DNA of 38,352 nucleotides from an uncultured Erysipelotrichaceae bacterium. GTDB lineage: Bacteria > Bacillota_I > Bacilli_A > RF39 > UBA660. This document shows, one piece after another, positions 27,767 to 34,371 of this stretch; position 1 is the stretch's first letter, and the number at the start of each line of letters is the position of its first letter. The notes below the pieces were generated by a model, which worked only from the letters and a program-made list of their open reading frames with translations, searched no databases and was not told the origin of the DNA. The DNA lies in assembly GCA_902783315.1 (NCBI GenBank), contig CACZQK010000025.1, positions 1 to 38,352 of the forward strand, written 5' to 3'. A program made the position numbers and the translations under genes.

Positions 27767-30700
27767 TTAATGTTTATAATATTTAAGGTATAGATAAAGT
27801 AAACCAAAACTAACTGAAAGTAATACAAAAATTACTAATATACGGACATTTTTTGTTTCAGGATTTTTAAATTCTTCTAGCTTTCTAAAAGTTACTTCTA
27901 TTACTTTATCTTCCTTCATTTCTTTGAAATTATCTAATACTAATTTTATTTTTGTTCCTTCTAGTTTTATATCTTCTCCATTTATTCTTATCGTATCTAT
28001 TTGATACCCTTCAGCAGCTTCTATTATTATTTTATTTTCCGTTGAATTATTACCATAGTATAATGTTTCATTACCAACTATTTTACCACCAATGCCATGG
28101 ACAATTGTTTCTACTTTTACTTTCTTTTTTTGATATTTATAATAAATCTTTTGTTCATTTTCTTGATAAGTATATTCCTCTATATCTGGCTTTTTTACTA
28201 ATTCATATCCTTCAAATTCTTTTTCTATAGGAGTATACTCTTCACCAACTAGGTTTGTTGTTAAAAGAGGTTCCGTTAACATACCTAGTTCCTTATTTTC
28301 CTCATCTACTTCCAAATAGTAAACCATTATCTTACCAGATATTTTTATATCAGTTTCTGCATCAGCCGAAACACTTCTTTCATTATTATCAAGTGTTATT
28401 ACACCAGTTGCTGAATTTATCATTTCTCGTGATGTTGGAAGAATACCAAGATATGATAAATTAATGTTTTTACTAATTGTTATTTCATCTTCGATAGTAC
28501 TTTCAATATTTCTAGTTTCAATCCAAGTAATTGTTTTAGTTGTAGAATCATAAGTTCCACCATTTAAATTTGACTTTTCCAAATCAATTTCATAGGGTAG
28601 AGTATCAATAATCTTAATAGTTGCTTCCCCTAAGTAGTCAGTAATCTTCACTTTATAGGTAATGTTATAACTAACTTTAGCGTCAGTACTAGTGATTTCA
28701 TTTGTGCCAGTATTTTCAATAGAAGAAGTTAATTTAGAATCCTTCTTTTGATAATAGTAGATAACATTTATTTCTTTTTCACTAACAGTTCCAGTATAAT
28801 TATTAGTTTTTTCTTTTAATTCGTAATTATTAGGAATAGTAGGGGTGTAATCTTCATCTAAATTATAAGAATCTCCATAATATTTATCAAAACTCTTTGA
28901 GTCAAATAGATTGGTTGGATTTTGATATTCTTCATATCTTACATTTATCTTAGAAGCAATCTTTTGAATTCCCATATTGATATCTTGTACTTCTAATAAT
29001 TCAGATTCTGAAGTAACATTTAATGAAGTAATTTTATCTGTTTTTCCATCACTATTAACTTTAGAATGTTCTCCTTTTTCAATAGGTTCATAATTATTAG
29101 GAATAGAAAATTCAACATAATAGTTACTTTTTTCTATATTCTCAAAGATATAGTGCCCATTTTGATCTGTTTGTGTAGTTGCAATAGTATTACCAATTTC
29201 ATTAAGTAGTTTTACAGTATTTGCTTTTAAAAGTGTATCATCATCATCATAACTACCATTTCTATTTTCATCTATAAAAGCTTTACCTGAAATAGCTCTA
29301 GATACTACTTTAGTCATTACTGTATTAGTTTTTATTGCCGCTTGTAAATTATTACAAGTCATATTCATTGTAAAAGCATAAGTATCTTTTTCTTCGTTAT
29401 TATTTGGGTTTATTTCCATTATAAAATCTGCAGTTGATTTAGAAGGAAATACTTCAATAAAAGAAGCAATAGCTGTTGCATTTACAGGGATTTCTTCTCC
29501 TAGCTGAACCTCATTCCAACGACTATCGTTTTCTAAATCCACATCTTTTATGGTAAGTTTGCCATATTTATCTTCACTAAGTCCTATATCGGATATATTA
29601 CCTGTTGCATAGAAAAACCTTTGACCAGTAATATTTGTTAGTATTTTAATAGTATAATTTCCGTTAAAGACCGAACTGTTTTCATCGTGATTAGTAGGAA
29701 GAATTTCAATTGTTTTCAAATTTCGTAATTCTTCATCTCCATTATTTCCAATAATAGATGTTACTTGAAATGCTTCATTTTTTTCTATAATTTGTTTTGA
29801 TATTTCTTTACTTACTCGAGAACCTGCTAAGTTTGATATAACTACTCCATAAGAGCTTTTTTTATAATCATTTTCACGGTTATCATCATCTGATAAATCA
29901 ATGTCAGGTTCTATTCTTGATTTTATAAGCAAAGAAGTATTATTTTCAACAGAAGCTGATATTTCTGCAGTATAAGTTATTTCTTTAAATTCAGGGGCGT
30001 CATGATTTACTTGCCAATGATTATATTCCCATTCAATAGTTGTTGTACCATCTAAATTTCTAGTAACTCTTTTAGGGTCCTTATTTGCACTTCCTATTTT
30101 ATAGGATAATCCATCAGGTAAAGTAGCATAAACAGTTGCCCTCTCAGAATAAATATCATTATCACTAGCTTCTCCACCTGTAGTAAGTGTTGGAGTTATT
30201 TTTATATGTATTTCTCCTTCTTGAGTATCATACGAACTTTTTAAAGTACCATTAGGAGATACATCTGTAACAGTTGTTGAGGTAGATGCTCTTGCTCCAA
30301 TAATTAAAAGGGAAGCTCCAACACTTCTAGGTGTCGATGAACTTGCTAATGTACCATCATCATTATAAATTGCCTGTTTAAATGTTGTAGTAGCAGCCGG
30401 TCTAATCGCTTTTGTTCTAGCCTTATCTTCGTAAACAATAACTTTATGATAGAATGCAACGACTTTCCCAATGTTTTCAGGATTTTCATTTACTTTAAAA
30501 CTTATATTAAATCTTTTTTGAATACCACTTTCTTGAATATCTTTATCATCAATTTCAATAGCCGCAATTTTTCCATGACTCTTAGCTTCGCTAGTGGTTG
30601 AATACCAATCAAAGTCCTCAGCAGAAGAAGCATTTATCGCCTCTAAAGAAGTCAACCCTTCACTAGGATTAGTTTTTAAAATACCATATTTATAGGTATA

Positions 30701-32353
30701 GGCTTTTGTTGTTGGACAAGGAAACCCAGAATTACTAGTACAGGCTACGGCAATCTTATCACTAAAAGTTACATATTTAGCATTCCATGTAAAGTAACGT
30801 AAGGATCCACCTAAATATGGACCATCAGTTGGATATATTTGCGATGAAGGGGTCACAGTAGCACCTAAAGGAGCAGATGATTCTTCATTGTCATGGCTAT
30901 TGCCACTATATAGTCGAACACGCGGATTTATAGCTTTAGACAAAGCCTTAGAAAAAGTATATACTTGACTATTATTTGTTGTAATAGAATCAGAAGAAGC
31001 ATTATATTCATAACTTTGTCCATTAGTATCATAATATTTTACAGTGTCCAAACTAAATGTATATTCATAATCATAATCAGTGTCACTATCAAAATCATAA
31101 TGAGGAATAAAAATCTGTACATTACCTGCGAGAATTCTTCCAAAAGAAGGATCATTAGAATCATGCGTTTCTCCTAAACTGCGAGCAGGAAAAAATTCTT
31201 GATTTGTTTGAAAATTAGTAAAAGAAGATGTAAATAAATTATTTTCATAAGAAATATCAAAAACTCCAGAGTCATAAACACAAAAATTATCAGAATATAA
31301 TCCCAGTCTTCCACAAGGAACGCCTGGCATACGGTTATGATCTTCTAAATAATAGTTTGGTTTTGATTCATAATTTAGTCCATATTCAATAACTTCTGGA
31401 CTAATAGTAGATGTCTTCCAACTACCAGTAGAAGATCCTGTTTTTGAACGATAGTGATACTCACCTGTAAATGTTAATTCAACTCTTCCTTGAGGAAATT
31501 CCACTCCTTTTAAGCTAGAATCTTCAATATTTGCCTGCTGAATATTTACTCCAATTCCAAAATTTAAATATTGTCCAATAGTATCACCTTTCACACCACG
31601 TAAATTTTTTGCAGCATTTTTACTAATATACGCATCAAGGGATACCTTTCCACTAATAATAGTTTCATGATTGTCTTGTAGAGTAATGGATTCAACATTT
31701 GATGAAGCAGCATCAGGCTTGTTTCCTTCCATCCAAACTTCAAAAATGGGTGCCATATCATTAGTTACTTCTTTTTTATATCCATTTATTTTTACAGAAA
31801 AAGTTAAATTTTGACTAGCGTTTGTAATACTAACACCTTGAGGGACATGATATTCAGCATATATTTCAGTCTTATCATTTGAATATGTTACATTTTGCAT
31901 CCAGGCATCTTGTTCCCAATTCATTAATATAGGACTATTTTGATTTGGTAACTTTGCTCTTACTTTAATGACTCCACCTTCAAAAGTTGAAGAATCCGTA
32001 ATACCATCTATAGTAGTATTAGGAGCTATTCCTAATTCAACAGTATACTTCATAATATCAAAAGTTCTAACATAATCGTCACTATCACTGACATCAATTC
32101 CATCAGTATTTGATACGTCTCCTTCAGAAAACGGGGCAGTTCCAGTAATTCTACTTTTAATATTTACATATTCAATTTTCATCTTATCATAAACAGCCTG
32201 ACGTTCTTCAGATAAAGATAAATATTCTATTCTATCTTTCACAATCGTAGTTAAACTATGACCTCCATAAAAAGGAATAAAAAGAATTGCTATTAATAGT
32301 ACTGAAGTTATCCCTATTATTTTAAACCATTTATTTAATACTACTTTTTTCAT
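27767..32353 (-). CDS. giant surface protein with SdrD-type B domain, MucBP-like repeats and NPxT anchor
   Basis: 1528 residues from ATG 32353, chosen for GGTGATG just upstream; the earlier in-frame ATG (32419) lacks an SD. N-terminal hydrophobic segment (about 8-30), then a long beta-rich exoplasmic region with DUF11-like repeats (near 700-1000). An SdrD/Cna-B domain at about 1020-1130 shows ISGKAFIDENRNGSYDDDDT, a Ca-binding style loop, and GHYIFENI. Two MucBP-like segments (about 1135-1205, 1340-1410) contain INVIYYYQKK and KIYYKYQKKK. The end reads KNPETKN, a TM helix and YLKYYKH. It is probably a wall- or membrane-anchored adhesin. No LPxTG. Confidence 0.82.
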   Translation of the reverse strand: MKKVVLNKWFKIIGITSVLLIAILFIPFYGGHSLTTIVKDRIEYLSLSEERQAVYDKMKIEYVNIKSRITGTAPFSEGDVSNTDGIDVSDSDDYVRTFDIMKYTVELGIAPNTTIDGITDSSTFEGGVIKVRAKLPNQNSPILMNWEQDAWMQNVTYSNDKTEIYAEYHVPQGVSITNASQNLTFSVKINGYKKEVTNDMAPIFEVWMEGNKPDAASSNVESITLQDNHETIISGKVSLDAYISKNAAKNLRGVKGDTIGQYLNFGIGVNIQQANIEDSSLKGVEFPQGRVELTFTGEYHYRSKTGSSTGSWKTSTISPEVIEYGLNYESKPNYYLEDHNRMPGVPCGRLGLYSDNFCVYDSGVFDISYENNLFTSSFTNFQTNQEFFPARSLGETHDSNDPSFGRILAGNVQIFIPHYDFDSDTDYDYEYTFSLDTVKYYDTNGQSYEYNASSDSITTNNSQVYTFSKALSKAINPRVRLYSGNSHDNEESSAPLGATVTPSSQIYPTDGPYLGGSLRYFTWNAKYVTFSDKIAVACTSNSGFPCPTTKAYTYKYGILKTNPSEGLTSLEAINASSAEDFDWYSTTSEAKSHGKIAAIEIDDKDIQESGIQKRFNISFKVNENPENIGKVVAFYHKVIVYEDKARTKAIRPAATTTFKQAIYNDDGTLASSSTPRSVGASLLIIGARASTSTTVTDVSPNGTLKSSYDTQEGEIHIKITPTLTTGGEASDNDIYSERATVYATLPDGLSYKIGSANKDPKRVTRNLDGTTTIEWEYNHWQVNHDAPEFKEITYTAEISASVENNTSLLIKSRIEPDIDLSDDDNRENDYKKSSYGVVISNLAGSRVSKEISKQIIEKNEAFQVTSIIGNNGDEELRNLKTIEILPTNHDENSSVFNGNYTIKILTNITGQRFFYATGNISDIGLSEDKYGKLTIKDVDLENDSRWNEVQLGEEIPVNATAIASFIEVFPSKSTADFIMEINPNNNEEKDTYAFTMNMTCNNLQAAIKTNTVMTKVVSRAISGKAFIDENRNGSYDDDDTLLKANTVKLLNEIGNTIATTQTDQNGHYIFENIEKSNYYVEFSIPNNYEPIEKGEHSKVNSDGKTDKITSLNVTSESELLEVQDINMGIQKIASKINVRYEEYQNPTNLFDSKSFDKYYGDSYNLDEDYTPTIPNNYELKEKTNNYTGTVSEKEINVIYYYQKKDSKLTSSIENTGTNEITSTDAKVSYNITYKVKITDYLGEATIKIIDTLPYEIDLEKSNLNGGTYDSTTKTITWIETRNIESTIEDEITISKNINLSYLGILPTSREMINSATGVITLDNNERSVSADAETDIKISGKIMVYYLEVDEENKELGMLTEPLLTTNLVGEEYTPIEKEFEGYELVKKPDIEEYTYQENEQKIYYKYQKKKVKVETIVHGIGGKIVGNETLYYGNNSTENKIIIEAAEGYQIDTIRINGEDIKLEGTKIKLVLDNFKEMKEDKVIEVTFRKLEEFKNPETKNVRILVIFVLLSVSFGLLYLYLKYYKH

Positions 32354-32544
32354 ATCATCACCATCTATCCTATAATACAAATTATACAGTAAGTTAGACT
32401 TTTTGTATACAAAAAACATGTCCTAATTGACATTAAAATATTACAAAATATACCACTCAAACAAAGTAAAAATAATATTAAGAGATGTAATACCTGCTTT
32501 AATATTTAATAAAAAATTTGTAACTAAAATATATTTATTAAATC

Positions 32545-32585
32545 TTGCAATTTTTAAGACAATTTAATAAAATCTATTTAGGTGG
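32545..32585 (+). promoter_or_regulatory. promoter and SD of the 32595 operon
   Basis: TTGCAA (32545-32550), a 17-nt spacer, TAAAAT (32568-32573), then SD AGGTGG (32580-32585) before the GTG at 32595. A TTGACA at about 32432 with TATACC 16 nt later is a second candidate upstream. Confidence 0.6.
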
Positions 32586-32594
32586 TGTATAATC

Positions 32595-33161
32595 GTGTTA
32601 ATAGAACTAGAAGGCCAATTGATAGTAATTGAAAAAATAACTTCTGAGGACTTGGTGAACTATTTTACCGAAGAAGGAAGAGAAGGCTGTATAAATACAT
32701 TTGAAGATTTAACTTTTGAAAAACTTAAGAATTTTAGCAACTCTTCAGTTGATGAGCCACTAATATATGTTGCCAAAGAAAATGATACTGATACAATTAT
32801 TGCACTAAGAGTATATACTGTTGAGAGAGTATATAGTGAGAAAGAAAAAGATAATGAGAAAGAAAAAGGCCAATTATTCCGAAGAAGCAATCTATTTTTT
32901 TATGAAAAAAGCCTGACTGAATCCACAAAAACTCTGCTTAGGCAACATTTTTCTAATATGACGATATATAGTGAATATCTAGATAAATCACTAGGAGAAG
33001 TGCAACAAACTGTGGGCACAATTGAAGAAGAAATACAAGATAGTAGTGCCAACCGATATAATAGGGACAAAAATAGTGATATAGGAAATCTTTTCCAAAA
33101 AAGAAAATGTCTAGAAGCAATATTAGCTTATAAAAGAGAAAAGAAAAATCACCAAAAATAA
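32595..33161 (+). CDS. small soluble protein, unknown function
   Basis: 188 residues, GTG start set by AGGTGG. No signal peptide. The first ~90 residues look alpha/beta (LIELEGQLIVIEKITSEDLV, PLIYVAKENDTDTIIALRVY), with a Lys/Glu-rich repeat (SEKEKDNEKEKG) in the middle and a charged helical C-terminus. It lies 16 nt before the phosphodiester glycosidase gene and has the only promoter of the pair. No family recognised. Confidence 0.6.
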   Translation: MLIELEGQLIVIEKITSEDLVNYFTEEGREGCINTFEDLTFEKLKNFSNSSVDEPLIYVAKENDTDTIIALRVYTVERVYSEKEKDNEKEKGQLFRRSNLFFYEKSLTESTKTLLRQHFSNMTIYSEYLDKSLGEVQQTVGTIEEEIQDSSANRYNRDKNSDIGNLFQKRKCLEAILAYKREKKNHQK

Positions 33162-33177
33162 AGAAAGGAAATGTAAT

Positions 33178-34371
33178 ATGAAGATAAAAACAATATTACC
33201 TGTATTTATAATATTAAGTATTTTTTCATTTTTTAATACGTATGCTGCAGAAGATTTACCACTTACATATACGGAGGCCAGATATAGTCAAGGAGATGAT
33301 TCAGGAACCAATATTTGGTATTCAGTAATACCTTCTAAATATAAAATGCATTACTCTTATGGAAAAGATCAAATTCATGAATTGGAAAAGCCAACTACTA
33401 ACGCTAAACGTCACCATGCGACATTAGCAATCAACGCTGAATATATGGGGTTAGTAGATTATAATGGGACTCTTTTACAAGCCGGAGCTGACGTCTCACA
33501 ATATGACTTTTATATGAAACCTAATACGGAAGATTCAACTACTGCGGCCAACATGTATGCTACTAATCCAACATCTACTGATGTAGGAATTGATTTATCA
33601 TATGCTATAAACCCAAGATGGTGCACTGGAATGTGTTTTGTAACAATGATTCGTGATGGCATTCGTGTATATGACGATGAAAATAATTATTCGGGAACAG
33701 GAAATTTAGTTGAAAGAAGGCACCCCAGAACTTGGATTGCAATTGATTCAGAGGGAAATCAATTCGTTGCTGTCTCAGCTGGTAGAAATGAGCCTTTAAA
33801 TGACACAGACTTTAGTCTATCACAAGCCGGATTAACTTTTGATGAAATAATAGCTGCCACCCATGAGTATTTTACAACGGATATTAAGTATTTATACAAT
33901 CTAGATGGTGGAGGCTCATCAGCTTTCGTTTATAAAGGAAATATGCTAAATCCAAAATATGATGATAATTTTACTACAGAAAGAGAAGTTCGAGGAATAT
34001 ACTATTGGAAAGTAGATGATTATACTATTGAATATGACTTAGATGGTGGCATCTTACCAGCAAATTTAGAAAATCCAGAAAAATATAATGTTGATACAAA
34101 CGATATAAAATTAAATAACCCAGTCAAAGATGGTTATGAATTTACAGGTTGGATTGAAACAATTGATAAAGAAACAACTGAAAATATTCAAAAAGAAATA
34201 GTAATATCTCCAAATAAAATAGGTAATCGCAAATATGTAGCTACTTATAAAAAAATAGATAATATCAAAAATCCAATTACAAGTAGAAAAAGTTATATAA
34301 TTATATTTGGGGTATTATCTTTAATAGTTGGAGGATTAATAATTCTTAAAATAAAACATGTACAAAATTAA
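33178..34371 (+). CDS. secreted phosphodiester glycosidase (NAGPA domain) with InlB-type repeat and NPxT anchor
   Basis: 397 residues: signal peptide (about 1-23, ending TYA), then the NAGPA/DUF2233 domain with its motifs INAEYMG, RRHPRTWIAID and LDGGGSSAF, the last two being the conserved active-site loops. Next an InlB B-repeat of the Listeria-Bacteroides type (about 283-360; YTIEYDLDGGILPANLENPE, KDGYEFTGWIE). The end reads KNPITSR, a TM helix and KIKHVQN. It probably acts at the cell surface on N-acetylglucosamine-phosphodiester-type glycans. AAAGGAAA SD, co-transcribed with the gene at 32595, next to the large NPxT surface protein. Confidence 0.85.
   Translation: MKIKTILPVFIILSIFSFFNTYAAEDLPLTYTEARYSQGDDSGTNIWYSVIPSKYKMHYSYGKDQIHELEKPTTNAKRHHATLAINAEYMGLVDYNGTLLQAGADVSQYDFYMKPNTEDSTTAANMYATNPTSTDVGIDLSYAINPRWCTGMCFVTMIRDGIRVYDDENNYSGTGNLVERRHPRTWIAIDSEGNQFVAVSAGRNEPLNDTDFSLSQAGLTFDEIIAATHEYFTTDIKYLYNLDGGGSSAFVYKGNMLNPKYDDNFTTEREVRGIYYWKVDDYTIEYDLDGGILPANLENPEKYNVDTNDIKLNNPVKDGYEFTGWIETIDKETTENIQKEIVISPNKIGNRKYVATYKKIDNIKNPITSRKSYIIIFGVLSLIVGGLIILKIKHVQN

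Follow-up and report, generated by a model that had tools for sequence, protein, structure and literature searches.

How are two neighbouring surface proteins of an uncultured Erysipelotrichaceae bacterium (GTDB lineage RF39; UBA660) held on the outside of the cell? The question is raised by a stretch of 38,352 nucleotides, positions 1 to 38,352 of contig CACZQK010000025.1 in assembly GCA_902783315.1 (called here the window), in which a giant protein with SdrD_B and MucBP domains and a phosphodiester glycosidase both end in Asn-Pro-x-Thr (NPxT), a hydrophobic helix and a short basic tail. We put the probability at roughly 80% that both endings are sorting signals of the ordinary C-terminal kind, of the type used by class B sortases. 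By themselves, the two proteins are likely to be further class B substrates of a known kind. On the sequences compared here, the NPxT signal is used widely in the genus, both at the ends of ordinary proteins and in the middle of lineage-specific fused precursors, and the internal, fused form is the unusual part.

Two tails in the window

The giant protein is encoded on the minus strand (27767..32419; an open reading frame (ORF) of 1550 amino acids (aa) with a probable start at Met23) and carries SdrD_B at residues 1047-1139 and MucBP at 1363-1430. Near its N-terminus lies a hydrophobic segment that may be a signal peptide or an anchor (32267..32320; read from the sequence and placed by counting, as are the helices and basic tails given below). 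The putative class B sorting motif, KNPET at residues 1518-1522 (27854..27868), is followed by the C-terminal hydrophobic helix of the predicted signal (27785..27841) and the basic tail KYYKH (27770..27784), all on the same minus strand. The glycosidase is encoded on the plus strand (33178..34371; 397 aa, with NAGPA at 91-272 and one Listeria-Bacteroides repeat at 282-335). It begins with a clear signal peptide by sequence (33178..33246), probably cut after NTYA (NTYA/AED), and ends in a second putative class B motif, KNPIT at residues 364-368 (34267..34281), with its helix (34294..34347) and the basic tail KIKHVQN (34348..34368). An earlier note on this DNA had described the shared ending, and it is confirmed: both versions, KNPETKN-TM-KYYKH and KNPITSR-TM-KIKHVQN (TM, transmembrane segment), are in frame, and in each the hydrophobic segment runs for 18-19 residues before the short basic tail. 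The two genes are divergent and have a 188-aa ORF without a Pfam family between them, and thus do not form an operon.

NPxT occurs three times in the 31 likely proteins of the window (11,203 residues) against 1.3 times expected from composition, and two of the three sit exactly before a C-terminal TM tail, in proteins with a hydrophobic N-terminus that are otherwise soluble. A script found a C-terminal hydrophobic tail in five of the 31 proteins; the three others are multi-pass (6-8 segments), and the giant protein and the glycosidase are the only ones whose C-terminal helix lies outside a multi-pass context. Since the chance of NPxT at one given position is 1.2e-4 (KNPxT, 1.2e-5), two matches among few allowed positions are far beyond chance.

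The earlier note had made the preceding Lys part of the motif. Here only NPxT stands: in relatives the residue preceding NP is I, V, T, G, N or E, so the Lys shared by the two window proteins is incidental and outside the motif. An exact scan of the bacterium's own genome for KNPxT gave 19 places against 16 in a reversed control, with in-frame protein ends only at the two window places, and KNPxT as a family signature was rejected on these counts. NPxT itself is not peculiar to the two proteins. A DNA pattern for NPxT plus a hydrophobic stretch gave 75 placements in the same genome against 44 in the reversed control, mostly noise. A check that covered part of the 75 placements identified these as in frame: both tails of the window, TNPKTYS in a 514-aa protein of contig 37, and internal sites of contigs 73 and 75; further in-frame tails may therefore exist. 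A third internal site, on contig 27, came from other searches.

Candidate enzymes in the same genome

The earlier note had made its reading depend on a sortase gene, and the genome has several: the assembly (1,395,915 bases, 108 contigs, 72% complete) gives seven matches to the sortase family, six of them above the Pfam cut-off. Four matches to the penicillin-binding Transpeptidase domain indicate that peptidoglycan is present as well. The portion of PMC10868615 available to us implies that RF39 keeps srtA/B and that RFN20 and ML615J-28 are without them.

The most likely enzyme would be a solitary class B sortase of 318 aa on contig 19 (L029:3085-4041), which reaches the class B equivalog model TIGR03064 with 176.5 bits (cut-off 153.75); the other NCBIfam sortase matches are three class B matches below the cut-off and three to class C and D models below theirs. 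Its active site can be read from the sequence (HN at 207, TLSTC at 297 and Arg in the following HAKRI), and it is 65% identical to its counterpart in genome G029 (L224). Both window proteins would be exported by the Sec pathway and arrested in the membrane by helix and basic tail; the sortase would then cut after Thr and join each protein to a peptidoglycan precursor, and the adhesin-like giant protein and the glycosidase would be displayed on the wall.

The tails could instead be sorting signals for a class C/D-like sortase of the same genome (at the end of contig 19 and on contigs 27 and 67). Glycosidase relatives end in VPNT and SPNT, and VPxT stands just before NPxT in 8 of the 46 members of a fused family described below, so the motifs may be shared or interchangeable. 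However, the class C/D-like sortases of contigs 27 and 67 directly adjoin thioester-domain/SpaA proteins that end in VPDTA (L028:5295-7494) and VPNT (L030:5095-7046), each immediately upstream of the sortase gene, and VPxT thus appears to have enzymes of its own. The L030 tail is short and its gene overlaps that of the sortase. The class D sorting signal is LPxTA or LPxTATN, a form also found in the name of the NCBIfam model, and the window tails read NPETK and NPITS rather than Leu-Pro-x-Thr-Ala. NPxT tails, for their part, adjoin class B genes (see below), and Asn-first motifs are known for class B enzymes, as far as the accessible text of PMC11987632 goes. We regard an assignment to class C/D as unlikely. 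Of the class B or D signal that the earlier note had proposed, the B part is thus retained and the D part dropped; its remark that LPxTG is missing is right for the window, yet the genome does hold VPxT tails beside class C/D-like sortases.

Two further loci of the genome, L031:4766-10164 and L032:3345-8720, are paralogous. Their class B-like sortases are 52% identical to each other, and each sits between an Ig-like (immunoglobulin-like) surface protein of 606-609 aa and a protein of 915-929 aa without a Pfam match.

NPxT tails beside class B sortase genes

TIGR03064 has matches in all 39 genomes of the genus, above the cut-off in 35, and the 30 class B loci that this search returned were read. 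The sortase has 237-256 aa in 7 of them, 306-343 aa in 22 and 417 aa in one (L226). In 5 of the 7 short-type loci the sortase gene is preceded, at a distance of 40-66 bp and on the same strand, by the gene for a protein that ends in NPxT, helix and basic tail (L207 NPHTG, L208 NPGTA, L211 NPNTA, L212 NPKTK and L220 NPETS); the remaining two, L206 and L210, have no NPxT-tailed neighbour. Gly after Thr is dispensable in these tails, as in the window's NPETK and NPITS. The gene order makes a strong case that NPxT is paired with the short-type enzyme, and pairing with the long, solitary type would follow by analogy with housekeeping sortases. An "LPFS" match in L216 was discarded, as it lies inside the sortase itself and is no signal.

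A wider survey took in 67 loci (228,417 bases) retrieved by searches with TIGR03064 or the two window proteins. It found 14 proteins with a single C-terminal helix and basic tail, which have xPx[T/S] before the helix in 10 cases and NPxT in 4; five scrambled motifs occurred 0, 0, 0, 1 and 0 times. This is a biased sample, which includes the window glycosidase and in which many loci are sortase neighbourhoods.

These counts bear on the other possibility in the earlier note, a lineage-specific membrane anchor: the tails might be plain, uncut anchors, with NPxT a helix-capping or chance sequence. It is consistent with this that neither tail reaches a curated anchor model and that both are without Gly after Thr. 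But NPxT keeps its position in a relative whose helix has diverged, NPxT tails directly adjoin class B sortase genes in five of the short-type loci, and scrambled motifs occur at most once each in the 14 tails in which NPxT occurs four times. With sortases in the genome and such an enrichment of NPxT before terminal helices, the uncut anchor is reduced to a minor and improbable rival.

Relatives of the window proteins

The position of the signal is kept better than its letters. The best relative of the giant protein (genome G022, L111; 39% identity over residues 1163-1534) ends in ITNPETSN, helix and basic residues, and keeps NPET though its helix differs. Other relatives of the giant protein end in TPNTS (G034), IPNTG (G028) and VPDTG (G054), or have no tail (G021). 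The glycosidase orthologue of G029 (64%, L065) ends in VPNTS and the relative in G022 (L086) in SPNTG, both at the same place as the window motif. The earlier note had proposed to test whether the motif position is conserved, and this is so in part: relatives that have a tail have it at the same position but differ in the first residue, and others are not anchored in this way.

Beside the giant protein's relative, L111:2778-4025 encodes a protein with the motif SHGCVN, which we take to be typical of L,D-transpeptidases. A 24,714-aa open frame in G033:C22 (L071) was set aside as a probable masking artefact; the fetched part has long runs of N.

Several observations weigh against class B sorting of the two window proteins. 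We infer export, cutting and joining from tail anatomy, which is what is observed. In the giant protein, the hydrophobic segment near the N-terminus shows no clear site for cleavage. The window holds no sortase: all seven matches in the genome lie on other contigs, and both genes are unlinked to any sortase gene. None of the 22 loci with a sortase of 306-343 aa, the type of the candidate on contig 19, had an NPxT tail nearby, and the neighbour of the 417-aa class B-like sortase ends in IPITG instead. Among the glycosidase relatives, those with VPNT and SPNT do not keep the motif's first residue and three further ones (L067, L068 and L069) are without any tail. Neither NF033846 (Rumino_NPXTG) nor the LPXTG anchor model TIGR01167 matched either window tail at E up to 10. 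The glycosidase tail does match the IsdC model TIGR03656 at E 0.009, with 15.8 bits against a cut-off of 155.85 and over the anchor part only; the sortase-adjacent tail of L212 matches the IsdC C-terminus better (E 4.9e-5). If class B sorting holds, two large surface proteins of an uncultured bacterium can be assigned to the sortase B pathway, in a lineage that would rely widely on Asn-first sorting signals.

A putative sorting signal in the middle of fused proteins

The internal NPxT sites of the genome are NPTTGD on contig 73, NPETGD on contig 75 and NPKTGN on contig 27. Behind each lie a helix, a loop rich in Lys, another helix with a signal-peptide-like end, and several hundred residues more. 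The genes, putative fused precursors, lie at L094:1-4017 (minus strand, contig 73), L095:1360-3063 (minus, contig 75) and L180:1215-3482 (plus, contig 27). Relatives have proteins of the same architecture: signal peptide, Ig-like module A, NPxT, TM, Lys loop, a second signal-peptide-like TM and module B. In an alignment of 21 diverse members (mean column identity 28%), the invariant columns are the Ala that ends the first signal peptide and the N, P and T of the motif; D69, Y73, N79, Y126, the loop Lys and the Ala that ends the second helix are nearly invariant.

A module-A profile without the motif columns, which lessens selection by the motif, was applied to the 717 ORFs of all loci. It matched 59 proteins at 1e-5, of which 46 continue with two helices; the other 13, with one helix (2 proteins) or no helix (11), were left out. 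NPxT precedes the first helix in 45 of the 46 (the exception is L092), which is an upper estimate, as the profile derives from NPxT members and, for the most part, the loci had been retrieved with profiles containing NPxT. The loop has at least two Lys or Arg in 45 of 46, a small-x-Ala site lies near the end of the second helix in all 46 (with Pro just before it in 39), and all 46 run on for at least 91 residues beyond that helix. The residue after Thr is G in 32, S in 4, N in 3, L in 2, and W, A, K and Q once each, a range that includes the Lys and Ser found in the window tails. In 8 of the 46 the motif is doubled, with VPxT ahead of NPxT before the first helix (L138, L130, L095, L198, L192, L201 and others), as if two sortases could compete.

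The gene that comes after a fused gene in L200 encodes a 699-aa protein without module A that ends in nearly the same signal, INVPDTLKNPNTG-helix-KKKK, here in terminal position. That a near-identical signal is internal in one gene and terminal in the next suggests that the sorting signal is a movable unit.

In its full form, the fused build was found only within this bacterial family. A profile of the 21 members, run over 296 genomes of the class with nine candidates scored per genome, matches in 28, of which 24 belong to the same family and 4 lie outside it; a match spanning module A and both helices is found in 6 genomes, all of the same family, and many weaker matches run through stop codons, as ordinary terminal signals would give. 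A smaller profile (A1) matches 31 of the 39 genus genomes, many of these matches covering only its repeat region. Named genomes were scanned with a closer subset (A3), alignment A2 being too diverse. The named members (L197-L205) come from metagenome-assembled genomes, some of them sheep duodenum or RUG bins, labelled Bacilli, Bacillales, Tenericutes or Erysipelotrichaceae.

Module-A genes are often interrupted by a contig end (L177, at the start of C4; L178, at the start of C38; L179, at the end of C96; and L182-L185 in genome G120). In G120, two pairs of contig ends have sequence in common (261 bp at 94% in one, 639 bp at 88% in the other), which hints at repeated or recombining copies, and L191 (G003:C9:32000-40000) has three fused-family genes in tandem whose DNA is 74-79% alike.

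How the fused proteins might be processed

Sorting signals are described as C-terminal in the accessible part of PMC4155245, and in the open PubMed Central literature no paper on internal sorting signals or on polyproteins cut by sortase plus signal peptidase was found by title or abstract start. A tentative account of the fused family is that sortase cuts the precursor after NPxT and that signal peptidase also cuts it, at the end of the second signal peptide. The Lys loop in the cytoplasm would serve at once as the basic tail of the first signal and the n-region of the second. Module A would be joined to the wall, and module B would become a separate chain held by a strand in module A's unfinished sandwich.

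The last step draws on structure models. An AlphaFold2 model from an alignment of 11 sequences (mean predicted local distance difference test score, pLDDT, 74.2; predicted template-modelling score, pTM, 0.63) shows module A as a beta sandwich followed by two helices, and directly after the second signal peptide a strand at 217-229 (pLDDT of the block about 92). In a structural search with this model, all 50 matches listed start at residues 6-42 and end at 227-240, and the alignments reach the ends of compact single-domain targets (2e6j over 110 of 112 residues, model residues 20-231); the model therefore includes the strand after the helices in the sandwich. For another member, the full-length model (mean pLDDT 63.5, pTM 0.54) places the strand at 218-230 (about 91), all 50 matches again end at 227-240, and the rest of module B falls below pLDDT 50. 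These match ranges give the first and last aligned residue only, and the two models share one alignment and are not independent. Foldseek returned nothing at E <= 0.001, a PDB sequence search with the A4 alignment gave no match up to E = 1, and the same alignment gave only chance-level matches against Pfam. Hydrophobicity alternates more strongly along the 18 residues behind the second signal peptide than along random stretches of module B (0.71 against 0.43; 0 of 10,000 draws reached the former). Models and hydrophobicity pattern together support the prediction that module B's first strand completes module A's sandwich.

The proteins could also be exported without any cut, as two-pass membrane proteins with modules A and B both outside and tethered by a helical hairpin, and we take this as a real possibility, though one held at less than even odds. 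Two predicted helices and a basic loop suffice for such a hairpin, and the AlphaFold models show both helices. A hairpin alone needs no NPxT, however, and NPxT is among the few invariant columns and present in all but one of the two-helix members. The second helix also ends in a site like that of signal peptidase, with a nearly invariant Ala and mostly a preceding Pro, and the product of a neighbouring gene carries almost this signal, INVPDTxKNPNTG, in terminal position. It is highly improbable that translation of module B begins separately at an internal start codon: 25 of the 46 members have a Met in or near the loop, but 21 have none there, and in every one of the 46 the reading frame continues across the junction.

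If the double cut took place, one gene would deliver a wall-bound holder and its cargo in equal amounts, the cargo without a covalent link to the wall. A conserved mid-protein signal with a second signal peptide would break the C-terminal rule, wall anchor and partner would be made from one chain, and annotators would have reason not to label such proteins as two-pass membrane proteins.

Comparison with known systems

The closest known counterparts of the window tails are the class B signals of the IsdC type. In the part of PMC11987632 available to us, the published class B motif is NPXTG or NPQTN and IsdC is the substrate in S. aureus (NPQTN) and B. anthracis (DNPKTGDE). Common to these and to the window proteins are Asn-Pro-x-Thr before a hydrophobic helix and basic tail, a class B sortase in the genome, and a Gly after Thr that is not obligatory (PMC11987632, same part). 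Unlike the IsdC systems, no isd/NEAT context is seen here, the substrates are of MucBP/SdrD type and a glycosidase, and the sortase is unlinked. NF033846 likewise describes an NPxT-type terminal anchor; it is matched weakly by 4 of the 21 aligned fused-family members and by the terminal tail of L200 (E 0.034). The TIGR01167 anchor is alike in anatomy, and the terminal NPNTG tail of L200 scores above its cut-off, but its first residue differs from the Asn found here.

For module A, the best structural match is the WxLIP of E. faecium (9i1y; Z 9.1 and 8.7, root-mean-square deviation 3.0 and 3.2, over 117 and 114 residues in the two models). Identity is 11 and 9%, and the Z scores are at a level that unrelated sandwiches also give; we know of no sorting hairpin in WxLIP. 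The proposed completion of the sandwich has its parallel in donor-strand complemented pilins such as Caf1 and Fim, in which the sandwich is completed by a strand from another part, and Caf1M and Fim complexes are among the structural matches listed. Unlike in those pilins, strand and acceptor would here begin as one chain, to be separated by sortase and signal peptidase.

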